This document shows positions 7,458 through 36,151 of a stretch of 64,000 bases of DNA, piece by piece. The DNA is from Thermus sp. CCB_US3_UF1. GTDB lineage: Bacteria; Deinococcota; Deinococci; Deinococcales; Thermaceae. The notes under the pieces were generated by a model. That model saw nothing but the letters and a program-made list of their open reading frames with translations, was not told the origin of the DNA and made no database searches. The position numbers and the translations under genes were made by a program. The stretch spans positions 2,108,001-2,172,000 of the forward strand of contig NC_017278.1 of the NCBI RefSeq assembly GCF_000236585.1, given 5' to 3'. How positions within the stretch are numbered: position 1 is the stretch's first letter; every line of letters begins with the position of its first letter.

Positions 7458-8186
7458 ATGGTCCCCCTGCTCACCACCCCCCTTCCCGTCCCCCACGGCT
7501 TCACCACCCGGGAGGGTGGGGTTTCCCAAGGGCCCTTCGCCAGCCTGAACCTCTCCCCGGCCACCGGGGATGACCCCGAACGGGTAGCGGAGAACCAGCG
7601 CCGGGTCCTGGAGGCCTTCGGCCACCCTCCGGTGGCCGCCTTGAAGCAGGTGCACGGCACCCAGGTGCACCGGGTGACGGGCCCGGGGACCTGGGAGGGG
7701 GATGGCCTCCTCACCCAGACCCCAGGCCTCCTCCTCCGGGTAGGGGTGGCGGACTGCTACCCCGTGCTCCTCTACCATCCCCAAGGGGCCGTGGCCGCCC
7801 TCCACGCGGGCTGGCGGGGGGTGGTGGGGGGGATCCTGCCCCGGGCCCTGGAACTGCTGGCCGGGCTGGGCCTGGACCCCCAGGAGGCCCACCTGGCCCT
7901 GGGCCCGGGCATCGGGGGGTGCTGCTACCAGGTGGGGGAGGAGGTGGCGGCCCGCTTCGCCGAGGCGGGCCTTTCCACCTTCGCCCAAGACCCTAAGGCC
8001 CCGGGCAGGTACCTCCTGGACCTAGAAGGGGCCCTCCTCCTCCAGGCGCAAAGGTGGGGGATCCCCAGGGAACGGATCCACCGGGTGGGCCTTTGCACCC
8101 GCTGCACCCCCACCCTCTTCTCCCACCGCCGCGATCGGGGGCGGACGGGGCGGATGTGGGGGCTGGTCATGCTCCCCCCGCGTTAA
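7458..8186 (+). CDS. pgeF: Purine nucleoside phosphorylase/multicopper polyphenol-oxidase fold protein (YfiH/PgeF)
   Basis: 242 residues of the YfiH family. Metal and catalytic residues are visible in KQVHGTQVH, GVADCYPVLLYHP and ALHAGWRGVVGG, plus IGGCCYQVGEEV and LCTRCTPTLFSHRRDRG. Family members phosphorolyse adenosine and other purine nucleosides, and are linked to peptidoglycan editing. ATG 7458 (MVPLLTTPLPVPHGFTTREG) fits the family N-terminus and has GAGAAT six bases upstream. An earlier in-frame ATG at 7404 is possible. Confidence 0.87.
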   Translation: MVPLLTTPLPVPHGFTTREGGVSQGPFASLNLSPATGDDPERVAENQRRVLEAFGHPPVAALKQVHGTQVHRVTGPGTWEGDGLLTQTPGLLLRVGVADCYPVLLYHPQGAVAALHAGWRGVVGGILPRALELLAGLGLDPQEAHLALGPGIGGCCYQVGEEVAARFAEAGLSTFAQDPKAPGRYLLDLEGALLLQAQRWGIPRERIHRVGLCTRCTPTLFSHRRDRGRTGRMWGLVMLPPR

Positions 8187-8220
8187 GGGAGGGTTCACCC
8201 CGGCGTGGCACAATGAGGCC

Positions 8221-8703
8221 ATGCTCTTCCCCCGGGCCGTCCTTCCCTCCCTCCTCCACCTCACCCCAGCCTGGCTGCGGGCGCGGGGCCTCCAAGGGGT
8301 GATCCTGGACCTGGACAACACCCTCCTCCCTTACGGGGAGGAAGACCCCCCTCCCCCCTACCGGGCCTGGCTGGAGGACCTCAAGGCCGAGGTGCCCATC
8401 TACCTCCTCTCCAACGCCCTCCCCGAGCGCTTCGCCCGGGTGCAGGGAAGGCTTGGCCTCCCGGGCCACGCCCCGGCCCTCAAGCCGTGGCTGGGCTTCC
8501 GCAAGGCCCTGAGGGCCCTGGGCCTCCCCGCCCGGGAGGTGGCGGTGGTGGGGGACCAGGTCTTCACCGACGTCCTGGGGGGCAACCTGGTGGGGGCCTA
8601 CACCGTGCTGGTGCCGCCCTTGCGGGAAAAGGAATTCTTTTACACGCGTTTCATACGGATGCTGGAGACTCCGTTTAGGAAACCCTGGGGAGGGTCGGCA
8701 TGA
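8221..8703 (+). CDS. YqeG-family HAD phosphatase
   Basis: 160 residues with HAD motif I LDLDNTLL (nucleophile D30, acid D32), motif II LLSNA and motif III/IV VVGDQVFTDVLGG. This is the short YqeG class IIIA family, related to GEP4 and often encoded in housekeeping operons. ATG is preceded by CACAAT at six bases, a leaderless-type start. The stop overlaps the pilF start (ATGA), so the phosphatase opens the pilF-pilT transcription unit. The substrate is unknown. Confidence 0.85.
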   Translation: MLFPRAVLPSLLHLTPAWLRARGLQGVILDLDNTLLPYGEEDPPPPYRAWLEDLKAEVPIYLLSNALPERFARVQGRLGLPGHAPALKPWLGFRKALRALGLPAREVAVVGDQVFTDVLGGNLVGAYTVLVPPLREKEFFYTRFIRMLETPFRKPWGGSA

Positions 8704-11366
8704 GCGTGCTCACCATTGGCGACAAACGGCTGGGGGCCATCCTTTTGGACGCCGGGCTCCTCACGGACGAGGAGCTGCAGATGGCCCTGGAGAAGCACCG
8801 GGAAGTGGGGGGAAGCCTGGCCGAGGTGATCGTGGACTCGGGCCTCCTTTCGGAAAGGCGCATCGCCCAGGCCATTGAGGACCACTTCGGCATCCCCCTG
8901 GTGGAGCTGCACACCCTGGAGATCCCCCCCAAGGTCAAGGCCCTGCTTCCGGCGGAGAAGGCCAAGGAGCTCCAGGCCATCCCCTTCGCCCTGGACGAGG
9001 AGGCCGGGGTGGTGCGGGTGGCCTTCGTCAACCCCTTGGACACCCTGAGCCTCGAGGAGGTGGAGGACCTCACCGGGTTGGTGGTGGAGCCCTACCAGGC
9101 CACCCGCAGCTCCTTCCTCTACGCCCTGGCCAAGGGGTACCCGGAGCTCAACCTCCCCCTGCCCCCCTTACCCACAGGCCCCACGCAAGGGGAGCTGAAA
9201 CTGGGCGAGCTCCTTCTGGAAAAGGGCCTCCTGGACCGGGCCACCCTGGAAGAGGCCCTGGTGGAGCAGGAGAAGACGGGGGACCTCCTGGGGCGGATCC
9301 TGGTGAAGAAAGGCCTGCCCGAGGGAGCCCTCTACCAGACCCTGGCCGAACAGAAGGGCCTGGAGTTCCTCCCCTCCACCGAAGGGATCTCCCCCGACCC
9401 CGCAGCCACCGCCCTCCTCCTCCGCTCCGACGCCCTGCGCTTTAGCGCCGTTCCCGTGGCCTTCCGCGAGGGCAAGGTGGAGGTGGTCCTGGCCGACCCC
9501 CGGCACAAGGAGGCGGTGGAGGAGCTCCTGGGGCGGCCGGGCCGCTTTTACCTCACCCTGCCCAAGGAGTGGGAGGCCCTGTTCCACCGGGCCTACCCGG
9601 AGAAGGGCCGCTTGGGGGAGGTCCTGGTGCAGGAGGGCCGCCTGAGCCGGGAGCACCTGCGGGAAGCTTTGGAGGTGCAAAAGCGCCTTCCCAAGGCCAA
9701 ACCCCTGGGGGAGATCCTGGTGGAGCTGGGCCTGGCCCGGCCCGAAGACGTGGAAGAGGCCCTGAAGAAGCAGCGCCAGGGCGGGGGGCGTCTGGAGGAC
9801 ACCCTGGTCCAGTCGGGCAAGCTCAAGCCCGAGGCCCTGGCCCAGGCCGTGGCCGCCCAGCTGGGCTACGCCTACATCGACCCCGCGGAGAACCCCCCTG
9901 ACCCCGGGGCGGCCCTCCTCATCCCCGAGGACCTGGCCCGCCGCTACGGCATCTTCCCCCACCACCTGGAAGGGAGGAACCTGGTCCTCCTGATGAAAGA
10001 CCCCAGGAACATCCTGGCCCTGGACGACGTGCGCCTGGCCCTCAAGCGCAAGGGGCAAACCTACGAGCTGGTGCCGGCGGTGGCCACCGAGGCCGCCATC
10101 ACCAAGCTCATCGAGCGCTTCTACGGCAAGGAGGAGCTGGGGGAGCTGGCCAAGGAGCTCTCCAAGGGGTACCAGGAGGAGGAGGCCACCCCCACCGAGC
10201 TGGACGAAAGCGCCGCCCAGAAGTTCGTCAAGCAGGTGATCCGGGAGGCCTACCTGCAGGACGCCTCGGACATCCACGTGGAACCCCGGCAGGCCGACGT
10301 CCTGGTGCGCCTCCGCATCGATGGGGCCCTGCGCCAGTACACCACCTTGCCCAAGGGGGCCCTGAACGCCATCATCAGCGTCATCAAGATCATGGGCGGG
10401 CTCAACATCGCCGAAAAGCGCCTGCCCCAGGACGGGCGGGTGCGGTACCGCGAGGGCTCCATTGACCTGGACCTGCGCCTTTCCACCCTGCCCACGGTGT
10501 ATGGGGAGAAGGCGGTGATGCGCCTCCTCAAAAAGGCCAGCGACATCCCGGAGATCGAGGGCCTGGGCTTTGCCCCCGGGGTCTTTGAGCGCTTCCAGGA
10601 GGTGATCTCCAAGCCCTACGGGATCTTCCTCATCACCGGGCCCACGGGAAGCGGCAAGAGCTTCACCACCTTCTCCATCCTGAAGCGGATCGCCACCCCC
10701 GATAAAAACACCCAGACCATCGAAGACCCCGTGGAGTACGAGATCCCCGGGATCAACCAGACCCAGGTAAACCCCCAGGCTGGCCTCACCTTCGCCCGGG
10801 CCCTTAGGGCCTTCCTGCGCCAGGACCCGGACATCATCATGGTGGGGGAGATCCGGGACTCGGAAACGGCCAAGATCGCCACCGAGGCCGCCCTCACCGG
10901 CCACCTGGTCATCGCCACCCTGCACACCAACGACGCCGCCCAGGCCGTGACCCGCCTGGACGAGATGGGGGTGGAGCTTTTCAACATCTCCGCCGCCCTC
11001 ATCGGCGTTCTCTCCCAGCGCCTGGTGCGGCGGATCTGCGACCACTGCAAGGTGGAGGTCAAACCAGACCCCGAGGTCCTGCGCCGCCTGGGCCTCACGG
11101 AAGGGGAGATCGCGGGGGCCAAGCTCTACAAGGGCATGGGGTGCGAGCGATGCAGCGGCACCGGGTACAAGGGCCGCTACGCCATCCACGAGCTCCTGGT
11201 GGTGGACGACGAGATCCGCCACGCCATCGTGGCGGGAAAGTCGGCCACGGAGATCAAGGAGATCGCCCGCAAAAAGGGCATGAAAACCCTGCGGGAGGAC
11301 GGGATCTACAAGGCCCTCCTGGGGATTACCACCCTCGAGGAGGTCCTGGCGCGTACCATTGAGTGA
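8700..11366 (+). CDS. pilF: Type IV pilus/DNA-uptake assembly ATPase PilF
   Basis: 888 residues, matching the unusually long T. thermophilus PilF. The N-terminal ~470 residues contain three GSPII/MshEN-type modules: repeated GEILVELGL..., LRLGELLLEKGLL-like segments at about 5-150, 155-300 and 305-470. The GspE-type motor follows, with Walker A GPTGSGKS at 647-654, a Walker B/Asp box, and a tetracysteine zinc site (C780, C783, C815, C818). It powers polymerisation of type IV pili and is needed for natural transformation in Thermus. The start overlaps the YqeG stop by four bases. Confidence 0.95.
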   Translation: MSVLTIGDKRLGAILLDAGLLTDEELQMALEKHREVGGSLAEVIVDSGLLSERRIAQAIEDHFGIPLVELHTLEIPPKVKALLPAEKAKELQAIPFALDEEAGVVRVAFVNPLDTLSLEEVEDLTGLVVEPYQATRSSFLYALAKGYPELNLPLPPLPTGPTQGELKLGELLLEKGLLDRATLEEALVEQEKTGDLLGRILVKKGLPEGALYQTLAEQKGLEFLPSTEGISPDPAATALLLRSDALRFSAVPVAFREGKVEVVLADPRHKEAVEELLGRPGRFYLTLPKEWEALFHRAYPEKGRLGEVLVQEGRLSREHLREALEVQKRLPKAKPLGEILVELGLARPEDVEEALKKQRQGGGRLEDTLVQSGKLKPEALAQAVAAQLGYAYIDPAENPPDPGAALLIPEDLARRYGIFPHHLEGRNLVLLMKDPRNILALDDVRLALKRKGQTYELVPAVATEAAITKLIERFYGKEELGELAKELSKGYQEEEATPTELDESAAQKFVKQVIREAYLQDASDIHVEPRQADVLVRLRIDGALRQYTTLPKGALNAIISVIKIMGGLNIAEKRLPQDGRVRYREGSIDLDLRLSTLPTVYGEKAVMRLLKKASDIPEIEGLGFAPGVFERFQEVISKPYGIFLITGPTGSGKSFTTFSILKRIATPDKNTQTIEDPVEYEIPGINQTQVNPQAGLTFARALRAFLRQDPDIIMVGEIRDSETAKIATEAALTGHLVIATLHTNDAAQAVTRLDEMGVELFNISAALIGVLSQRLVRRICDHCKVEVKPDPEVLRRLGLTEGEIAGAKLYKGMGCERCSGTGYKGRYAIHELLVVDDEIRHAIVAGKSATEIKEIARKKGMKTLREDGIYKALLGITTLEEVLARTIE

Positions 11367-25570: not shown

Positions 25571-26475
25571 GGGTGGTGGGCCTGGACCTGGGAGGCACCA
25601 AGATCGCCGCCGGGGTGTTTGACGGGGAGGGCCTGCGTTCCCGGGTGGTCCTCCCCACCCCCAAGGAAGGGGGGGAGAAGGTGGTGGCCGCCCTGGCCGA
25701 GGCCGCCCTCCAAGCGGAGGCCCAGGCCGGGGCAAAGGCCCAGGCCATCGGCCTCGGTACCCCCGGCCCCTTGGATTTCCAGCGGGGGATCATCCGCTTC
25801 ACCCCCAACATCCCTGGCCTGCAGGACTTCCCCATCCGCCGCCTCCTGGAGGAGGCCACGGGCCGGCCCGTCTACCTGGAAAACGACGCCAACGCCGCCG
25901 CCTTGGCCGAGCACCACCTGGGGGCCGCACGGGGGGAGGAGAGTTCCCTTTTCCTCACGGTCTCCACCGGGATCGGGGGTGGGGTGGTCCTTAAGGGCAG
26001 GGTGCTCCGGGGGGAGCGGGGCCAGGGCGGGGAGCTGGGGCACACCACCCTCCTCCCCGGGGGGCCGGTGTGCGGCTGCGGCCTGGAGGGGTGCCTCGAG
26101 GCCCTGGCCGCCGGCAGGGCCCTGGAACGGGAGGCCAGCTACGCCTACGGGCGCCCCGTGGACACCAAGGAGCTCTTCCGCCTCTTCGGGGCGGGGGAGG
26201 CCAAGGCCAGGCGTCTGGTGCTCCAGGCGGCCCGGTACGTGGGCATCGGCCTGGCTAGCCTGGTCAAGGCCTTTGACCCCAGCGTGGTGGTGGTGGGCGG
26301 GGGCCTGGCCCTGAACGCCCCCATGGGGTACTGGCAGGCCCTGGAAGAGGCCTACCGCCACTACCTGGCCGGCTGGGAGGTCCCCCCCCTGCGCCGGGCC
26401 CTTCTGGGGAGCGAGGCTGGGCTTCTGGGGGCAGCCCTCACCGCCTACCTGGAGGTGCAAGGTGGCGGCGGGTAA
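25567..26475 (+). CDS. ROK-family sugar kinase, probable glucokinase
   Basis: 302 residues. ATP-binding [21 protein letters not shown] zinc motif [10 protein letters not shown], and a C-terminal [10 protein letters not shown] adenosine loop. It would phosphorylate glucose to glucose-6-phosphate in the cytoplasm. ATG 25567 is chosen over longer in-frame starts because it begins exactly at the conserved [12 protein letters not shown]. It overlaps the genes on both sides. Confidence 0.9.
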
Positions 26476-26674
26476 GGTTCTGGTCCTGCTGGGGCTTGTC
26501 CTGGTGGCCCTAGGCCTTCTGCTCCTTTATGCCCCCAAGCTCTTCGCCTGGTTCGGCCACCTGCCCGGGGATATCCGAATCGAACGGGAGGGGTTCCGGC
26601 TTTACCTGCCCCTCACCTCCTCCTTGCTGCTCTCCCTGCTCTTGAGCCTGGTCTTGGCCCTGGTGCGGCGCTAG
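26462..26674 (+). CDS. DUF2905 membrane protein
   Basis: 70 residues with two hydrophobic helices around the conserved loop [15 protein letters not shown], the DUF2905 hallmark. Starts at GTG 26462 inside the ROK gene. The last 165 bases are antisense to the 3' end of the SARP-like gene. Confidence 0.85.
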
Positions 26675-28285
26675 GAGGAAAACCCGCTCCTTGCCTGCCC
26701 TGGGGCGGTACAGGCGCAGGGAAAAGGCCACCACCCCCAGGCCGCTCACGGAAACCCGCCAGGGCCCTGGGGGCAGGAGGGCCAGGTAGCGGAAGGGTTG
26801 GCTACGGGCAAAGCCCAGGGTCAGGGCGCCTCGAGGGGTACCTAGGGTCAAGAAGGGCCCCTCCCCTGGCCCCGGGCTGTAGGCCTCCCCCTTCACCTCC
26901 AGCACCAGGCTCTCCTCCAGGGGGGCAAAGTCCAAAAAGGCCTCCTCCCCCGGCTCCAGCAAGGCGGCGGCAAACCCCTCGGGTGCCGCCTCCAAGCCCC
27001 TGCCCTCCCCGGGGAGCAGGGCCTGCTCCCGGCCCAGGCCCAGGAAGCGGTAGGGAAAGGCCTCGGGGGAAAAGGCCTGCCGCAAGGGGGTAGGAAGGAG
27101 GGACCACGCCTCCTCCCCCATGGCCAGGCGCATGAGGGCCTCCTCCCGGGCAAGCCCTGCCAGGGCCAAGGCCGCCGCCGCCCGTTCCTGGAGCTCGCGG
27201 CGCCAGCCTGGGGGCAGGGCCTGGGAAAGGAGGCGGCGCTCCGCTTCCTTGGCGAAACGGTAACCCTCCCGGTACACCAGCCACCCCTTGCGCTCCAGCT
27301 CCCCCAGGTAAGGGTAGGCCTCCAAAGCCTCCAGCACCGGCTCCGGCAGGGAACCCCCCACCACGGAAAGCCGCTCTAGGGCCATGCGGGCCGGCTCGCT
27401 CAGCCAGCGGGCCTGGAGGCGCAGCTGGGCCAAGGGCCGCTGGGGTAGGTCGGCGCAGGCCAGCCAGTCGGCCATCCATTCCGGCTGCCCCCCGGAAAGG
27501 AAGTAGATCCGGGCCGCCTCGAGCAAGGGAAGGCCCGCCAGGGGCCCACGCCGGGCTTCAGACCAGGTAAGGGGCGGAAGGTCCACCACCCGAAGCCGCT
27601 CCGGCGGGTAGTGGGCCCGAAGCTCCAGGAAAGCCCGGGGTTCCTCCCCGGGCTCCAGGTTGAGGACCACGAGCCCGCGGTGGGCCAGGACCTCGCGGAG
27701 AAGGGAAGGGGGAAAGGGCCCTTCCAGGTAGGAAAGCCCCTGGGGGCGAAGCCCTTCGTGGAAGGGCAGGCCCAGGGCCTGGGCCAGGGCCTGGGCCAGG
27801 TCCCGCTTGCCCGCACCCGCCCGCCCTTTCAGGACCAGGACGAGGGGAAGGGGGAGGGTGGCCAGCTCCCGCACCAAGGCCTCCCGGATGGGCACGGGGG
27901 GCCTCCGCTCCCAGCGCAGGCGCACTTCCTGGACCCAGTCCCAGAGTCCCTCCACCGCCTCCAGGCCTTCCAGGACCTCCCCCTGCCCGGTGGCCTCCAG
28001 CTGGATCCAGGGGGGGAGCGCCAAGGGGTCCTGCCCCGGGGGGAAGGGCCGCTCCCCCAGGGCCCGGGCCAGGCGGTGCAGCTCCACCCGCAGGTTTTGC
28101 AAACCGGCCCCGTGCCCGTAGAGGAGGTCGGCCAGGCGGGCCCTGGGAGTAGGCCCCTCCAAGGCCAGGTAGTAGAGGAGGGCCAGGCCCTTGCGGGAAA
28201 GGCGCACCTCCTCCAGGCCGGATAGGAGGCGGGGCCGGCCAAAAAGGGGAAGGGTGTAACGGGGGGGGTTACCCGAGCGTTTCAA
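26510..28285 (-). CDS. SARP-like transcriptional regulator with ATPase domain
   Basis: 591 residues from TTG 28285. Residues 1-80 read as a winged-helix DNA-binding domain of the SARP/AfsR type ([18 protein letters not shown], then ARLADLLYG and [13 protein letters not shown]). An ATPase segment follows, with Walker A GRAGAGKR near 155-162, then a helical region and a beta-rich C-terminal domain (430-530). The last ~55 residues are antisense to DUF2905 and look low-complexity (Q/G/E-rich); a one-base shift would stop the protein at about 26672. It is divergent from the surface operon at 28442, and phased repeats at both promoters suggest it controls that operon and itself. Confidence 0.68.
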
Positions 28286-28294
28286 CGCGTTACC
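28267..28294 (-). promoter_or_regulatory. Three phased GNAACGC-type repeats over the SARP start
   Basis: On the minus strand GGTAACGC (28294-28287), TGAAACGC (28284-28277) and GGGTAACC (28274-28267) follow each other every 10 bases and cover the TTG start. A candidate -10 box TAGAAT lies at 28307-28312, so the repeats sit at the transcript start. I infer an autoregulatory operator. Confidence 0.45.
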
Positions 28295-28356
28295 ACCCTG
28301 GCTTTTATTCTACCACCTTCCCCAACCCGCCTGGCCTCCAAGGGCACCTTTTCCCA

Positions 28357-28390
28357 GGAAACGCCAGGGAAACGCGCCCTCGCCTAACCT
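28357..28390 (+). promoter_or_regulatory. Candidate SARP-type operator and -10 box of the surface operon
   Basis: Two exact GGAAACGC repeats (28357-28364 and 28368-28375) are spaced 11 bases apart, nine bases before TAACCT (28385-28390). SARP activators characteristically bind heptamer direct repeats with an 11-bp period just upstream of the -10, in place of a -35. The same GAAACGC core is in the regulator's own start region. Activity is inferred only. Confidence 0.5.
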
Positions 28391-28458
28391 TAGAGCGTCC
28401 TGAGAGGCTCAAGCCTCCCGGGACGGATTAAGGAGGGATGTATGCGCAAAGGGATGTT

Positions 28459-28467
28459 GGTAGCAGT
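28459..28467 (+). repeat. Target-site duplication, left copy
   Basis: GGTAGCAGT directly before the left end of the IS element; an identical copy follows the right end at 29647-29655. Confidence 0.9.
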
Positions 28468-29559
28468 CTATGTACACGTCAAAACCTCCATAGGGCATAA
28501 CCCCAAGGGACTTCCGCGCCTTCCTCCCCCTGCACCCCAGAGGGCAAGCGCCCAAAGGGTGAGCAGGTCCAGCCCCGCCCGGAAGAGGCTCTGTCCCAGC
28601 CTCCCGTGCTTCTTGGGCCTCACCGGACGCACCCGGTGCAGCACAAGCCCCGTCCGAAACGCCCACACGAAGGCCAGGCTCAAGGGGACCAAAAGCCGCG
28701 AAAGCCTCTCCCCCCGCGTCACGTGCGTGGCCTCCAGGTCAAATCCCCGCCCCTTCAGGGCCCCAAAGAGCCGCTCTATCCCCCACCTGAGCCCGTACAC
28801 CTCCAGCACCCGGTGAGGGTCCAGGTCCGTAGCCACAATCAGCCACTCCCGGACCCCAAGGCGCAACCCCACCACCCACATGCGCCGCCCGTAGACCCAG
28901 TACCGCCGCCTGGGCACCCGGCTCTCTCCCACCTTCAGGGAGGCAAAGAGCTCCCAGGCCCGAGGGCCCGAGCCCAACCGCCACATCCGGGTGTTGGCCT
29001 TGATTCGGATGCACCGGGGGATGCCCTTCTCCTCCAGGTACCGGAACCACGCCTCCCCTATGAACTCCCGATCCGCCAGGAACCCCTCCACCCGGAGGTG
29101 GGGGAAGTGGGCCCTCAGGAAAGCCAAGGCCCTCTCCATCAGGGCGATGCGTTCGGGGGTGGAGGAGTTGCCGTCGTGGGGAAGGAAGCTCCAGAACAGG
29201 GGGACGGCCAGGCCTTGGTACAGGAAGGCCAGCATCAGGAGGTTGACCTTGCTCTTCCCCAGCTCCCACTCGGTCCGGTCCATGACCAGGAGGAGCCCTT
29301 GGGGTCGGAGGAGGGCGAAGATGAAGCGGGCATAGCCCTCCCCGTCCAGCCCCGGCCAGGCCAAGAACCGCTGGAACCTTCGGTAGGCGGAGCGGGGGTC
29401 AGGGCTGGCTATGGAGCCGAGGGAAAGAGCGAGTCTGGGGCCGCTTGTGGTGCGGGCGGTGACCAGAGCCATCACCAGGGCGGCCAGGAAGGTGAGGCGC
29501 CTGAGGTCGGCCTTCCAGTATCGCTTCAAGGCGTTGATGAGTGGGGTAAGCTGTTCCAT
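28468..29559 (-). CDS. IS4-family DDE transposase
   Basis: 363 residues, apparently intact. DDE residues are D in VMDRTEW, D in FLADREFIG, and E in the Y-2x-R-3x-E-6x-K signature YGLRWGIERLFGALK. ATG 29559 is favoured by AGGAGG eight bases upstream; GTG 29568 overlaps that site. The stop codon TAG is made by the outermost three bases of the terminal inverted repeat (CTA, 28468-28470). Confidence 0.93.
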   Translation of the reverse strand: MEQLTPLINALKRYWKADLRRLTFLAALVMALVTARTTSGPRLALSLGSIASPDPRSAYRRFQRFLAWPGLDGEGYARFIFALLRPQGLLLVMDRTEWELGKSKVNLLMLAFLYQGLAVPLFWSFLPHDGNSSTPERIALMERALAFLRAHFPHLRVEGFLADREFIGEAWFRYLEEKGIPRCIRIKANTRMWRLGSGPRAWELFASLKVGESRVPRRRYWVYGRRMWVVGLRLGVREWLIVATDLDPHRVLEVYGLRWGIERLFGALKGRGFDLEATHVTRGERLSRLLVPLSLAFVWAFRTGLVLHRVRPVRPKKHGRLGQSLFRAGLDLLTLWALALWGAGGGRRGSPLGLCPMEVLTCT

Positions 29560-29646
29560 GGGGACCACCTCCTATGGGTACCTGCCCATCCACGTGGGCG
29601 CAGGTCCATCCTAAAGGGGTGGTCCCACGTTTTGACGTGTACTGAG
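28468..29646 (-). mobile_element. Complete IS4-family insertion sequence
   Basis: 1,179 bp. The ends are an 18-bp imperfect inverted repeat: left CTATGTACACGTCAAAAC (28468-28485), and right, read inward, CTCAGTACACGTCAAAAC (29646-29629), with two mismatches. It is flanked by a 9-bp duplication and holds one transposase gene on the minus strand. The size, duplication length and YREK-containing DDE transposase fit the IS4 family. Confidence 0.93.
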
Positions 29647-29655
29647 GGTAGCAGT
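29647..29655 (+). repeat. Target-site duplication, right copy
   Basis: GGTAGCAGT immediately after the right end of the IS, identical to 28459-28467. It continues into ATTGGCC, the rest of the interrupted signal peptide. Confidence 0.9.
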
Positions 29656-30464
29656 ATTGGCCCTGGCCCCCTTGGCCCTGGCCCAGATCGTGGCCCCCAC
29701 CACGGGTAACGGCCCGGACGCCGTGGCCAAGGGGGTAAACTCGGCCTCGGTGAACCAGACCATCCAGCTCATCCTGCCCAAGGCCACCGCCTTGCACCTG
29801 GACGTGACCACCCTGACCTTCGACCTCACCGCCTTGGATGGCCCCAACTGGCCCAACTCCGGGGCCGATTTCGGCAACCAGATGGTCTGCGTCTACGGGC
29901 TCCAGGAAGACGATGTGAGCACCAAGCTGGGGGACAACTTCTACAACCAGATCCAGACCCTGCCCCTGGGTACCTACTACGAAGTGGCAAACTGGCCCAA
30001 CATCCGCATCGTAGGGGGCGGCCAGGTCACCGCTTACCCGCCCATCAAGCTGGACAAAAACGGGGAGCTGGTCCCGGGGAGCAAGAACCACTTCGTCTGC
30101 TACCGCTCCTTCATCCTGCAGAAGTTCTCCAACGGCAAGCGGTGGGAGCTGACCGTAAGCCGCAACGACCCGCAAGGCGCCCAGAGCATCCAGCATCTCT
30201 ACATCCAGGACAACCCCTGCGACACCTTCGGCGCCGCCACCGGCCTCTACGCCCTGCCCAACGGGGCCACCCTGCAGCTCGTGCCCAAGAACCTGCAGGC
30301 CGGCCCCACGGGGAGCCGTTCCAACAATAACCCCAAGCAATGCGGCTACAAGAGCTGGCTGGATGACCTGGTGGTGGTGGCCGTAAAGGTCAACGCGGAC
30401 CTCTGGGGCACCAGCACGGCCAACCTCACCTACACCCTCGCCACCACCGCCTGGTAAGCGGCCA

Positions 30465-30513: not shown

Positions 30514-31359
30514 ATGAAGCGCCTCGTCCCCCTCCTCCTCTTCCTGGCCCTAGGCGGCCTGGCCCAAAGCACCCTGGGGGTAGAGCCCCCGGTCCTCCTC
30601 AAGGAGGCCAAGCCGGGGGACACCCTCACCCACACCCTCCTGGTCCACAACGTGGGCACCCGGCCGGTGCGGGTTCGGGTGAGCCTGGGGGACTGGACCT
30701 ACGACCCCATGGGGAGGATCCAGTTCCTGCCCGTGGGCGCCCTGAAGGAAAGCGCCAGCCCCTGGGCCACCTTCAGCCCAGCGGAGTTCACCCTGGAACC
30801 CAAGCAGTCCCGCCCCGTCACCTACACCCTCACCGTGCCCCGGGACGCCACCCCCGGAAGCCACTGGGGCATCCTCTTCCTGGAGGCAGAAGACCCCAAC
30901 CCCCCTCCCGGCATCCCCCTCGCCACCTTCCGGGTGCGCATGGCCCACGTGTTCTACGTGAACATCCCCCCCTTGCGCACCGCCGGGCGCATCACCGGCA
31001 TCGTGCCCAGCGCCCCCAAGGGCCCCCAGGATCCTTTCCGCTTCGCCATCCAGTACCAAAACACCGGCAACACCGCCCAGAAGCTTTCCGGCCGTTTTGA
31101 GGTGCGGGACCCTTCCGGACGCAAGGTGGCCGAGGTGGCCATCGAGGAAGAGGTGGTCCTGCCCGGACAGGTGCGGATCCTGCCCGTAAGCCTGGTGGGC
31201 CCCCTGCCCGCGGGCAACTACACCGCCTTGGTGGTCCTCAACTACGGCGATCCCGAAAGGGACGTGGCCGCGGACCTGCCCTTCACCCTGCGCGCCCCCC
31301 TGGCCGCTCCCCCAGCCCCCCCCACGCCCCCTGAGGGGGAGAAAGGAGGCACCCCATGA
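30514..31359 (+). CDS. PapD-like periplasmic chaperone of the surface operon
   Basis: 281 residues with a signal peptide (MKRLVPLLLFLALGGLAQS). The mature part reads as two Ig-like beta-sandwich domains. The first has PGDTLTHTLLVHNVGTRPVR and EPKQSRPVTYTLTVPRDATP, and the second starts near 160 (FRFAIQYQNTGNTAQKLSG). The pattern resembles fimbrial chaperones and DUF916-type surface-protein domains, with a Pro-rich C-terminus. The usher-like gene two places downstream supports a subunit-chaperone role in the periplasm. Shine-Dalgarno AAGGA precedes ATG. The stop overlaps the next start (ATGA). Confidence 0.65.
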   Translation: MKRLVPLLLFLALGGLAQSTLGVEPPVLLKEAKPGDTLTHTLLVHNVGTRPVRVRVSLGDWTYDPMGRIQFLPVGALKESASPWATFSPAEFTLEPKQSRPVTYTLTVPRDATPGSHWGILFLEAEDPNPPPGIPLATFRVRMAHVFYVNIPPLRTAGRITGIVPSAPKGPQDPFRFAIQYQNTGNTAQKLSGRFEVRDPSGRKVAEVAIEEEVVLPGQVRILPVSLVGPLPAGNYTALVVLNYGDPERDVAADLPFTLRAPLAAPPAPPTPPEGEKGGTP

Positions 31360-31845: not shown

Positions 31846-34800
31846 ATGAAGCCCCTTTGGGCCCTTCTACCCCTCCTGGCGGGCCTGAGCCTGGCCCAGG
31901 TCCGCCTCACCCTCCCCTCCCCCCTCGCCGGGGTCCCCGGGGAGTACCTGACCCTGAGCCTGCGGGTGGAAGGGCGGGGGGCGGTGCGCTTCCGCCTTTT
32001 TCCCCCGGAAGGCTGGCAGGCCCTCTCCTCGGAACGCCAGGCGGTGCTGGAGGGGAAGGAGGAAACCCTAAGCTTCACCCTCCGCGTCCCCCCCCTGCCG
32101 GCGGGGACCCGGGGGAAGGCCGTGGTGGTGGCCTACGTGGGGGAGCAGGAGGCCGCCCGGGCGGAGGCGGAACTGGCCGTCCTGCCCCTGATCCAGATCG
32201 CCCTTTCGGTTCCCCCCACCCTCGAGGCCGAGCTGGGAGGCCCCTTTGAGTTCCCCGCCTATATCACCAACCGCTCCAACCAGCGGGTGGAGGTCCTCCT
32301 GGAAGCCGAGGCCGCCATGTTCCAGGTCTTCCTGAACCCCCCGGGCCTGGGCCTGGCCCCTGGGGAAACGGGGGCGGTGCGGGTGCTGGTGAGCCCCGAG
32401 GGGCAGATCTCCGCCGGCTACCGCTTCTACATGAAGCTCCGGGCCACCCCCAGGGGCCTGCCCGAGGCCCGGAAGGAAGCCGGGGTCATCGTCCTCTTCC
32501 GCGACCCCCTGGTGGGGGGCCGGAAGGGCAAAGACCCCGAGCTAAGCCTGGGCCTAGGCGTGGGTTTCAGCCTAGGGGCCACCTGGGAAAGGGGCCAGCT
32601 CCGGGGCCAGGTGGGCTACCAGCTCCTCCCCACCCTTTCCGGGGCCCTTTCCGACTACGTCACCGCCACCGCCAGCCCAGGCCCCGTCAGCGGGGACCTG
32701 GAAAACCCCCTGCGCCTCCCCCAGACCCTCACCCTAAGCCTCCGAGGGGAGGGCTGGGAGGCCCGGGCCCAAGGGGGCCCAGGGAGCTTTAGCCTGGCCA
32801 CCGCCTTCCGCTTAGACCCCGTGCGCCTGGGGGTGGAGGGGGGCTACCGTCCCCAGGGGCTGGCCTTCCGGCTGAGCGGGGTCAGCCTGGACAAGGCCCT
32901 GGACCTGCAGGGCAGCCTCAGCACCCAGGCCACCCCCACCGGGCGCCAGGACAGCCTCAGCCTCCGCTACCGCCTGCCCCTGGAGGGAGGGCTCAGCCTA
33001 GGCCTGGGCACGGACCTGGCCGGGCAGGCCGGGGAGGGGTACCGGGTTTCCTTCGGCCTGAGCCAAAGCCTTACCTGGCAGACCCAGGGGCTGGAACTGG
33101 TGCAAACCTATAGCGGCGTGCCCCTGGCGGGCCTCCACGCCCTGGGCCTGGCGGGGGGCACGCGAAGCCTTTACCCTTGGGGCCTCCGGGGGAGCACCAG
33201 CCTGCAGCTGGGCCCCAACCTGGGCCTCTGGCAGAGCCGGCTCAGCCTCTACTACCAGCCCCTTCCCGGCCTCCTCCTCACCCTCACAGGAAGCTACCGC
33301 CAGCAAGGGGAGGAGCGGGGCTTTGGCCTGGCCCCAAGCCTCACCGCCAGCTTCGGCGCGCCCGGGGTGGTCTGGGGAAGCCTCAGCCTGGGCTACGGCA
33401 CCGAGCAGACCCTTTCCGGGCAGGCCCCCGAACGCCAAACCTACCAGGGAAGCCTCAGCCTGGGCACCCGCGAGTTCAGCCTCTCCGGCTACCTGCGCTA
33501 CCTGGCCCAGGAAACCCCCTACCTGGAAGGCAACCTCCTCCTGCGCTATGCCTTTCCTGGGGGGAGCCTCGAGGGGGTCTACCTGGTCAAGCAAGGAGGA
33601 GCCCAGGACCAAAGCCTCTATGGGGTTAGCTGGAGCCACCTCTGGCCAGGAAGCCTGCAAAGCCGCCTCTTTTACGAATACCGCCAGCAACAAGAGGCCA
33701 GCCAGCGCCTGGGCCTCACCCTCTCCCAGCGGAACTTCCTGGAACCGGGCCTCTCCCTGGGGGCCACCTACGCCCTCACCCTCCAGGGGGGCGAGGCCCG
33801 GCACGACTTTGGGCTGAGCCTGGCCTACGCCCAGGCCCTCGCCTTCGCCACCCCCAAGGAGGTGGTGGACCTGTTTGGCGGGCGCAAGGGGGGGGAGGTG
33901 GCCGGCCGGGCCTTCCGCGACACGAACCTGAATGGCCGCCTGGACCCCGGGGAGGAAGCCCTGTCCGGGCTACGGGTCTGCCTGGGCAACACCTGCGAAA
34001 CCACCGACGCCGAAGGGCGCTACCGCCTGGTGGTGGCCCCTGGGGAGGGGAGTTTGCTCTTCGGCAACCTGCCCGCCACCCTGGCCCTGGTGGGGGAGGA
34101 ACGGGTTTCCGTAAGCCTAAACGCCCGCCTGGAAAAGGACCTGCCCTTCGCCCCCGCCACCAGCTTGCCGGTCGTGGTCCTGGATACCGACACCGGCCAA
34201 GGCCTGGCCTTCGCCGGGGTCTGCGCCGAAGGGCCGGTCAAGCGCTGCACCCGGGCCGACGCCAACGGACAGGCCCTGCTGGGAGGCCTCTTCCGCGGAA
34301 CCTACCGGGTCTACCCCGACCCCCGTTTCCTCCCCCAGGGGTACCGGGAGGAAAAGGCAGCCCAGGTCCAGGTGGAGCCCGGAACCCCCCTTGCCGGCGT
34401 CCAGGTGAGGGTGGCCCCCCCCAAGCGGGAGATCGTGGTCACCTACACGGCCGACCGCCTCAGCCTGGTGGCCACCGCCGACCCTCCGAGCCCCCTCGCC
34501 GGGGCGGAGGTGGAGGTGAAGGCCCTGGTCCAAGGGGAGGCTGAGGCGGTATGGCTGGAACTGCCCACGGGGCGGATCCCCTTACAGCCCCAGGGGGAGA
34601 ACTACTATGCCGCCCGGATACGCCTCACCTTGCCCCCTGGCTTCCACAGCCTAAGGGTCCTGGCCCAGGGGCGGGAAGAGGCGGAAGCCCCGCTCTTCCT
34701 CCAGGTCCTTCAGGGGGCCCTCTTCGACCCCCGGGTCCTGGAAGGCCCCAAGGTCCGCCTCACCCTGCGCTTCCGGGCGCGCCAGGTGGCCTTGAGCAAA

Positions 34801-34956
34801 GGGGGGGAGAGCTTTCCCCTAAGGAGCGAAAACGGTTACACCTGGACCGGGGAGGTGCCCCTCGGCCCCGGTCAGCACACCCTCTTGGTGCTGGCCGATG
34901 GGGAGATGCTGGGGCAGGTGGCCCTCAGCATCCCCGCGGAGAGCGCAACGCATTAG
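31846..34956 (+). CDS. Usher-like outer-membrane beta-barrel protein
   Basis: 1,036 residues. Signal peptide (~1-17). Two N-terminal Ig-like/NEW3-type domains (~20-220). A long region of alternating amphipathic strands (~230-670) with many YxxxLxLxLG repeats, reading as a 20-plus-strand outer-membrane barrel. Then an SdrB/carboxypeptidase-regulatory-like domain (~683-735: GRAFRDTNLNGRLDPGEEAL, TTDAEGRYRLVV), as occurs in archaic fimbrial ushers after the barrel. Three or more beta domains complete the C-terminus. I infer a secretion or assembly pore for the subunits encoded upstream. A plain outer-membrane porin with surface domains is the alternative. Confidence 0.65.
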   Translation: MKPLWALLPLLAGLSLAQVRLTLPSPLAGVPGEYLTLSLRVEGRGAVRFRLFPPEGWQALSSERQAVLEGKEETLSFTLRVPPLPAGTRGKAVVVAYVGEQEAARAEAELAVLPLIQIALSVPPTLEAELGGPFEFPAYITNRSNQRVEVLLEAEAAMFQVFLNPPGLGLAPGETGAVRVLVSPEGQISAGYRFYMKLRATPRGLPEARKEAGVIVLFRDPLVGGRKGKDPELSLGLGVGFSLGATWERGQLRGQVGYQLLPTLSGALSDYVTATASPGPVSGDLENPLRLPQTLTLSLRGEGWEARAQGGPGSFSLATAFRLDPVRLGVEGGYRPQGLAFRLSGVSLDKALDLQGSLSTQATPTGRQDSLSLRYRLPLEGGLSLGLGTDLAGQAGEGYRVSFGLSQSLTWQTQGLELVQTYSGVPLAGLHALGLAGGTRSLYPWGLRGSTSLQLGPNLGLWQSRLSLYYQPLPGLLLTLTGSYRQQGEERGFGLAPSLTASFGAPGVVWGSLSLGYGTEQTLSGQAPERQTYQGSLSLGTREFSLSGYLRYLAQETPYLEGNLLLRYAFPGGSLEGVYLVKQGGAQDQSLYGVSWSHLWPGSLQSRLFYEYRQQQEASQRLGLTLSQRNFLEPGLSLGATYALTLQGGEARHDFGLSLAYAQALAFATPKEVVDLFGGRKGGEVAGRAFRDTNLNGRLDPGEEALSGLRVCLGNTCETTDAEGRYRLVVAPGEGSLLFGNLPATLALVGEERVSVSLNARLEKDLPFAPATSLPVVVLDTDTGQGLAFAGVCAEGPVKRCTRADANGQALLGGLFRGTYRVYPDPRFLPQGYREEKAAQVQVEPGTPLAGVQVRVAPPKREIVVTYTADRLSLVATADPPSPLAGAEVEVKALVQGEAEAVWLELPTGRIPLQPQGENYYAARIRLTLPPGFHSLRVLAQGREEAEAPLFLQVLQGALFDPRVLEGPKVRLTLRFRARQVALSKGGESFPLRSENGYTWTGEVPLGPGQHTLLVLADGEMLGQVALSIPAESATH

Positions 34957-34981: not shown

Positions 34982-36151
34982 ATGCGGTATTGGTACGGCA
35001 TTCTTTTGGCGGTGGGGCTTCTGGCGGCCTGCTCGCAAAGCCCCCAAGGGGTGAACCCCCAGGCGGTGGTGGTGCCGGCTTCGGTGACCGTGGAGAAGAC
35101 CGCGGTCCCCAAGTTCAAGCGCACCTACCGCTGGACCATCGCAAAGCAGGTAACCGACCCCGCGAGCGGTACCCTCACCCTGGCCACCGGCCAGGCCTAC
35201 ACCTTGAAGTACGCGGTGAACCTTCTGGGAACCCCCACGGATTCGGACTTTAGGGTGGAGGGCAGGGTGACCATTCGGAACACGGGCAGCGTGCCGGTGG
35301 AACTGCAAGCCCCCACGGACACCATCACCCCGGGCGGGATCGGCGTGACCCTGAACTGCGGGGTCACCTTCCCCTATACCCTTTCGCCCGGAAGCAGCTT
35401 GGTCTGCGACTACAGCCAAGCTCTGCCCGATGGGCAAAGCCGCACCAACAGCGTGGCGGTGAGCTGGTCCGGCGGGGGGCAAAGCGGCACCGCCACCGCC
35501 CAGGCGGGCTTCAGCTTCACCAACCCCACGGAGGTGGTGGACGGCAGCGTCACCGTGAGCGACCCCTCGGCCACCTTGGTGAGCAGCATCAGCGGCATCG
35601 ACCCCCAGGGAGTCATCTCCCAGACGCACTTCTTCGAACGCACGGTAAGCTTTGACCGCTGCGGGGAGTACCGGGTGGAGAACACCGCCACCTTCACCAC
35701 CAACACCACCGGCACCCAGGGCTCCGCCTCGGCCACGGTCCAGGTGAACGTGCCCTGCGTAGGCGGCTGTACCCTGACCCAGGGCTACTGGAAGACCCAC
35801 TCCCGGTATGGCCCCGCCCCCTACGACGACACCTGGGCCCAGATCGGGGAGGACACCCCCTTCTACCTCTCGGGCAAGGGCTACTACCAGGTCCTCTGGA
35901 CCCCGCCCTCCGGGGGCAACGCCTACTACATCCTGGCCCACCAGTTCATCGCCGCCAGGCTGAACATCCTGAACGGGGCCGCCACCACCCCTGCCGTGGA
36001 TGCCGCTTTGGCCTGGGCCCACACCTTCTTCCAGACCTATAGGCCCACGGATAGCCTGAGCAAGGCCCTGGCCAACCAGGCCAAGGGGTACGCCGCCACC
36101 CTGGACAGCTACAACAACGGCTACATCGGCCCCGGACACTGCTCCGAGTAG
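34982..36151 (+). CDS. Lipoprotein with TQGYWK-type domain
   Basis: 389 residues. Lipobox LLAAC gives a lipidated C17. Residues ~30-255 are Ig-like beta domains with DUF11-like repeats and cysteines (LNCGV, LVCDYS, FDRCGEY). A C-terminal domain follows (~260-389), starting GCTLTQGYWKTHSRYG and ending GHCSE. This TQGYWK module is seen on many secreted bacterial proteins and has no known function that I can name. ATG 34982 has AAAGGAGG at eight to nine bases. Probably the surface-exposed tip or anchor component of the operon (inference). Confidence 0.7.
   Translation: MRYWYGILLAVGLLAACSQSPQGVNPQAVVVPASVTVEKTAVPKFKRTYRWTIAKQVTDPASGTLTLATGQAYTLKYAVNLLGTPTDSDFRVEGRVTIRNTGSVPVELQAPTDTITPGGIGVTLNCGVTFPYTLSPGSSLVCDYSQALPDGQSRTNSVAVSWSGGGQSGTATAQAGFSFTNPTEVVDGSVTVSDPSATLVSSISGIDPQGVISQTHFFERTVSFDRCGEYRVENTATFTTNTTGTQGSASATVQVNVPCVGGCTLTQGYWKTHSRYGPAPYDDTWAQIGEDTPFYLSGKGYYQVLWTPPSGGNAYYILAHQFIAARLNILNGAATTPAVDAALAWAHTFFQTYRPTDSLSKALANQAKGYAATLDSYNNGYIGPGHCSE

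Follow-up and report, generated by a model that had tools for sequence, protein, structure and literature searches.

Winged-helix relatives with the folds of OmpR/PhoB, EmbR and AfsR bind to direct repeats of about 11 bp. For Streptomyces antibiotic regulatory proteins (SARPs), a rule has been described by which the repeats are spaced by 11 bp and the 3′ repeat lies 8 bp from the -10 box (PMC10936776). In the case of AfsR, a pair of 11-bp repeats that overlaps the -35 element is occupied by two adjacent SARP molecules, which dock sigma region 4, and most of the contacts to sigma region 4 and to αCTD are made by the BTA domain, which is thought to be central to SARP activation (PMC10936776). 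PimR uses 10-bp spacing too (PMC5930380); operators of this SARP-LAL type, whose regulators join a SARP domain to LAL parts, consist of two or three CGGCAAG heptamers with 4-bp spacers, the main operator not overlapping the -35 region, and of a secondary operator made of 10-bp units. The literature describes SARPs as confined to actinobacteria (PMC10972967). The SARP-type response regulator known from Deinococcus (PMC3564903), which carries a CheY domain, is of a different type from the regulator treated here, and another paper (PMC1274311) uses the acronym SARP in an unrelated sense.

How does the present locus compare with these systems? In the window, that is, the whole 64-kb stretch of Thermus sp. 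CCB_US3_UF1 DNA analyzed here, GGAAACGC occurs twice on the + strand (28357-28364 and 28368-28375), and the operator drawn from it, GAAACGC-N4-GAAACGC with an 11-bp period, adjoins a probable regulator gene that diverges from an operon of surface proteins (Table 1). The earlier note had reported two exact repeats 11 bp apart that end nine bases before TAACCT and had likened them to a SARP operator; their positions and sequence were confirmed, and the likeness holds as well, with 9 bp between the second heptamer as drawn and the -10 box where the SARP rule has 8 bp (PMC10936776). As in the afs box of AfsR, two direct repeats of 11-bp period overlap the -35 region with the 3′ repeat near the -10 box, the core here, GTAACGC, being different; as in PimR-type operators, heptamers are separated by 4-bp spacers. 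OmpR/PhoB response regulators and the pho box share the 11-bp direct repeats, and TTCAC-like variants in some of the loci below are a further resemblance to them. Exact 8-mer repeats at period 11 are found twice in the window, and TANNNT follows at 9 bp only after the operator. When the 156-bp intergenic region was subjected to dinucleotide shuffling, such a repeat arose in 66 of 20,000 shuffles (0.3%) and a repeat together with a -10 box in 0 of 20,000. The exact match to GWAACGC-N4-GWAACGC at this site is the single one in the genome.

Table 1. Features of the regulator-operon locus (positions in the window)
Feature	Position	Strand	Remark
Regulator, 591 aa, TTG start; predicted OmpR-type winged helix, STAND-like NTPase fold, CBM6-like beta-sandwich, without BTA domain	26510..28285	-	
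Regulator DNA-binding domain	27992..28285	-	AF2 model, pLDDT 90.6
Repeat R4, GTTACAC (weak)	28254..28260	-	same position in most orthologues
Repeat R3, GTAACCC	28266..28272	-	mean conservation 0.85
Repeat R2, GAAACGC, overlapping the TTG start	28277..28283	-	mean conservation 0.83
Repeat R1, GTAACGC	28287..28293	-	mean conservation 0.95
Regulator promoter, extended -10 TGGTAGAAT	28307..28315	-	TGnTANNNT in nearly all clade-A orthologues
Operon-side heptamer 1, GAAACGC (GTAACGC in most orthologues)	28358..28364	+	mean column conservation 0.95
Operon-side heptamer 2, GAAACGC, 11 bp from heptamer 1	28369..28375	+	mean column conservation 0.95
Operon -10 box TAACCT (TANNNT), 9 bp past heptamer 2	28385..28390	+	gap conserved
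5′-leader hairpin, just past the -10 box	28397..28424	+	covariation; predicted from transcript sequence
Shine-Dalgarno AAGGAGG of first operon gene	28430..28436	+	from sequence
S1 (secreted protein), 5′ part, first operon gene, cut by IS	28442..28467	+	
IS4-family element	28468..29646		transposase 28468-29568 (-), NF033591 IS4 transposase
S1, 3′ part	29656..30457	+	
Periplasmic chaperone-like protein	30514..31359	+	Fn3/PapD/WxLIP-like domains, all below cut-off
Secreted protein, 162 aa	31356..31844	+	recurs with the operon; no Pfam match
Protein of 1036 aa, SdrD-B-like domains	31846..34956	+	barrel from sequence reading
Secreted lipoprotein	34982..36151	+	

The operon-side repeats are real and conserved. 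When intergenic regions were aligned from 13 orthologous loci (12 from Thermus genomes other than this one, and one from elsewhere in Thermaceae), the operator core was found to be GTAACGC-N4-GTAACGC, of which GAAACGC in the window is a variant; column conservation is 0.95 in the heptamers, 0.64 in the spacer, 0.64 in the gap and 0.53 in the remaining intergenic DNA, and T, A and the final T of the -10 box are invariant in 14 of 14 aligned sequences. A paralogous locus, called B as opposed to the orthologous locus A, is complete in nine Thermus genomes and carries pairs of TTAACGC (sometimes TTCACGC) in the same placement. Over both loci, the arrangement 7-4-7-9-TANNNT is exact in 22 of the 23 promoters scored, the remaining one having an 8-bp gap. 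At thresholds of E<1e-50 for the regulator and E<1e-40 for the operon chaperone, regulator and operon occur together in 15 Thermus genomes, and in 12 others neither is intact, two of the latter retaining regulator fragments. The recognition helix reads ELHRL in clade A, with GTAACGC, and ELTHL in B, with TTAACGC; this co-variation is suggestive only, because the pattern follows the clades.

The divergent regulator-operon pair is present also in other families of the phylum, with varying preservation of the operator. Loci L190 and L191 (TTAACGC-GTCG-GTCACGG-9-TACCTT) and L194 (TTCACGC-AGGC-GTCACAC-9-TACATT) keep the exact 7-4-7-9 layout with variant heptamers, and L183-L185, L030 and L193 have a degenerate operator on the operon side, with regulator-side repeats that are partly clearer. 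Meiothermus-type genomes keep a related regulator and lack the operon. All the 27 loci found in the one-genome-per-species data (27/27) belong to Deinococcota, and the relatives carrying names are Thermus (T. caliditerrae, T. igniterrae, T. arciformis, T. altitudinis, T. composti and T. tenuipuniceus), Meiothermus, Calidithermus and Deinococcota MAGs. The earlier note had proposed to look for the repeats wherever the regulator-operon pair is conserved; there they are, throughout Thermus and more loosely in other Deinococcota. It is to be noted that kinship among the sequences inflates some of these counts, and that the cross-family loci and the mirrored control described below are less dependent on it.

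On the regulator side, GGTAACGC, TGAAACGC and GGGTAACC lie on the - strand at 28294-28287, 28284-28277 and 28274-28267. The earlier note had described them as three repeats phased by 10 bp over the regulator's own start. Three repeats are indeed present over the start; the even phasing did not survive alignment by the core, which gives four repeats at spacings of 10, 11 and 12 bp. They begin about 13 bp downstream of the extended -10 element TGnTANNNT and span the TTG start codon (28285).

What kind of protein is encoded next to these repeats? A Pfam search of the regulator gave essentially no match. In an AlphaFold model from 32 homologues (mean pLDDT 89.7), the predicted chain opens with a winged helix (residues 9-96), which two helices connect to a P-loop NTPase core; a helical/winged module follows the core, and the C terminus is formed by a beta-sandwich. 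Foldseek matched the regulator to STAND proteins (6mfv, CED-4 and Apaf-1) and to CBM6 modules with low whole-chain TM-scores, so that these are fold-level calls; at this level, the NTPase core and the following winged-helix module have a STAND/NOD fold. The isolated DNA-binding domain is best matched by OmpR/PhoB winged helices, mostly of response regulators (1gxp, 4nhj and 2zxj among the matches), and also by EmbR (2fez) and AfsR (8hvr/8k60), all at modest scores (TMq about 0.45-0.58, no E-value <0.04). Matches to Trans_reg_C are weak and come from 3 of the 32 members, and the profile of the domain also matches a BTAD SARP of the same genome. No receiver domain, as OmpR/PhoB response regulators have, was found by Pfam in the regulator or its homologues, or in the model.

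The regulator thus resembles AfsR in having an N-terminal OmpR-type DNA-binding domain with a NOD/STAND-type NTPase fold further on, and differs from it in several respects: it has no BTA domain, its NTPase fold comes almost directly, just two helices, after the DNA-binding domain, its P-loop is degenerate, its C-terminal domain is CBM6-like where AfsR has TPR, and it probably acts on a surface operon and not on an antibiotic gene. The BTA domain (PF03704) is absent among the best 25 of the 30 families matched by the 32 homologues, and none was found in the AlphaFold model or in the Pfam search of the window protein. Therefore, true SARP membership was rejected for the SARP-like gene of the earlier note. 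No intact Walker A (GK[ST]) was found in the P-loop: its lysine (GAGKRD) occurs in the window protein only and is replaced by Q, R or another residue in 31 of the 31 other aligned sequences, which makes an ATP-driven switch doubtful. In many genomes, homology at the C terminus containing in-frame stops had suggested a small protein fused to, or read through from, the end of the regulator; this was ruled out, since the homology is that of a DUF2905 gene (26462-26674, + strand; the match covers residues 6-69) lying antisense to the final 55 codons of the regulator's reading frame, and orthologous regulators end earlier.

The earlier note had also called it unusual to find this geometry beside a SARP-like gene outside Actinobacteria. 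The occurrence of such genes is in itself no rarity when the phylum is surveyed: BTAD-type proteins are encoded in 40 of 41 genomes, with up to 25 per genome. A BTAD SARP gene of this genome looks split by an insertion (L134:6802-7656, G000:C2 about 171,800), a transposase-like ORF following the BTAD part at 7663-8883 and the TPR-containing part resuming at 8926.

The reading that we prefer, with a probability of roughly 0.7, is that these repeats serve as operator for the divergent regulator, whose tandem binding would activate the operon in a SARP-like manner and would probably repress its own gene. Two regulator molecules would bind head to tail on the heptamers spaced by 11 bp, on the same face of the helix, and, being placed just upstream of the -10 box, would replace a good -35 element and recruit RNA polymerase as SARPs do. 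Activation of the operon is the most likely outcome, judged by analogy, because the operon-side repeats stand almost where AfsR sites do with respect to the -10 box. On the other side, the location of the repeats downstream of the -10 element and across the start codon suggests autorepression, in which binding at the three or four repeats would block transcription of the regulator. The STAND-like middle part and the CBM6-like C-terminal part would probably gate oligomerization or sensing. In favor of this explanation are the conserved geometry and heptamers at loci A and B and at pairs in other families, the joint presence of regulator and operon within Thermus, the matches against the mirrored control given below, the confidently modeled DNA-binding domain with its fold matches, and the uniqueness of the operator in this genome. 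Several points tell against it: the BTA domain, the main contact maker in AfsR, is absent; repeats of this class stand also at promoters that the regulator does not adjoin; Meiothermus-type genomes keep a related regulator without the operon; and some operators in other families are degenerate.

The repeats may instead be bound by another OmpR-type winged-helix protein, such as a PhoB/OmpR response regulator or a BTAD SARP encoded elsewhere, the divergent regulator being a mere neighbor or a secondary binder. OmpR/PhoB domains bind 11-bp direct repeats too, the fold matches of the DNA-binding domain are mostly response regulators, BTAD proteins are common in these genomes, and promoters with the GTAACG class are numerous throughout the phylum. 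In 61 related genomes, GTAACG-N5-GTAACG far outnumbers the mirrored control, and the motif with TANNNT at 9 bp has 66 matches in 111 Deinococcota genomes against 0 for the mirrored control. Of 24 sites outside the locus, 11 have TANNNT beginning at 9 bp, 4 at 8 bp and 3 at 11 bp, with only five other TANNNT starts scattered across 50 positions. Because of these genome-wide matches and the distribution of gaps, the 7-4-7-9 layout is a phylum-wide promoter class of which the divergent regulator is probably one of several users; the same repeat class is present at promoters without this regulator adjoining, and therefore other regulators can use it. Against a foreign binder at this locus stand the occurrence of repeats at both promoters of the intergenic region, the recurrence of regulator, operon and repeats together across the genus and beyond, the failure to find the operon-side operator where a paralogous regulator has no operon (L065), and the lack of a second exact GWAACGC-pair operator in the genome, so that we consider this reading unlikely.

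It is quite improbable that the regulator binds to the repeats and represses the operon. A protein placed just upstream of the -10 box could exclude sigma region 4; however, the distance from the last repeat to this box is a constant 9 bp, which is the layout of SARP-activated promoters (PMC10936776), and it is the regulator-side repeats, in contrast, that lie downstream of a -10 element. A chance feature of GC-rich intergenic DNA, as the one further 8-mer repeat in the window might hint, is practically out of consideration, being already refuted by the comparative data (conservation, geometry and the mirrored control).

If the preferred reading, binding and activation by the divergent regulator, is true, a BTA-less regulator with SARP geometry would separate the effect of placing the DNA-binding domain from the contribution of the BTA domain. 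The locus further supplies a testable operator motif for many promoters of Thermus, Meiothermus and their relatives that are uncharacterized so far, and it provides the surface operon, itself little studied, with a candidate regulator. A wider picture is tentative: GTAACGC-N4-GTAACGC-N9-TANNNT promoters would be a Deinococcota-wide type at which BTA-less STAND-like regulators with OmpR-type DNA-binding domains replace the -35 element, and the regulator here, possibly sensing a glycan-like ligand via its CBM6-like domain, would control an operon for surface assembly that has a conserved CCACCA-loop hairpin at the start of its mRNA.

In this leader hairpin, 6 of the 11 stem pairs are changed on both sides with compensation, 86.7% of cells are paired, and none of 500 shuffles scored as high (0/500). 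Its apical loop is CCACCA in 12 aligned relatives and TCAA in this genome. A covariance model found the hairpin at this operon in 12 Thermus genomes and, apart from one weak extra match, nowhere else; Rfam offered no credible match to the intergenic region. A role in mRNA stability or translation control is possible.

The operon recalls chaperone-usher systems in that secreted subunit-like, periplasmic chaperone-like and large barrel-like proteins are encoded together, and differs from them in that no usher or PapD chaperone is matched above the Pfam cut-off and in that the barrel-like protein, probably an outer-membrane beta-barrel as read from its sequence, carries SdrD-B-like domains. With no match to the usher family and a chaperone-like gene that matches families below cut-off only, it is not assigned to that class; a literature search on Thermus chaperone-usher systems found no paper devoted to this operon. 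The IS4-family element, absent from the earlier note, interrupts S1 within codon 9 and is flanked by a 9-bp target duplication, GGTAGCAGT (28459-28467 and 29647-29655). With the insertion site read as empty, S1 comes out at 275 aa and shares 81-85% identity with intact orthologues. Ten identical copies of the transposase in the genome point to a recent burst. The regulator, the operator and the genes downstream are intact, so that the switch may still drive what remains of the operon, if only poorly, or may fail to do so.

Several other sites of the repeat class were noticed. A second GTAACG-N5-GTAACG in this genome (L133:7355, G000:C2:1357354), 8 bp before TAGGGT and kept in other Thermus, is flanked by a KAS-III-like gene and a gene for an 858-aa TPR/ATPase-type regulator, the C-terminal part of which resembles, as judged by eye only, the winged helix of OmpR-type proteins. 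Elsewhere in the order, one genome (L140, G042:C1:1176304-1176342) has four GTAACG copies in tandem with an 11-bp period. In the Meiothermus group (L085, L087, L088, L114 and L115), a conserved operator and -10 promoter (GTAACGCGCYTGTAACG...) precedes a short conserved stretch; Rfam gave no match on L085, L087, L088 and L114, and over the operator loci other than the present one it yielded two tRNAs only. In two Thermus genomes (L137 and L138), a lipoprotein like that of the operon is encoded elsewhere with its own upstream GTAACG pair, and it is possibly a second target in trans.
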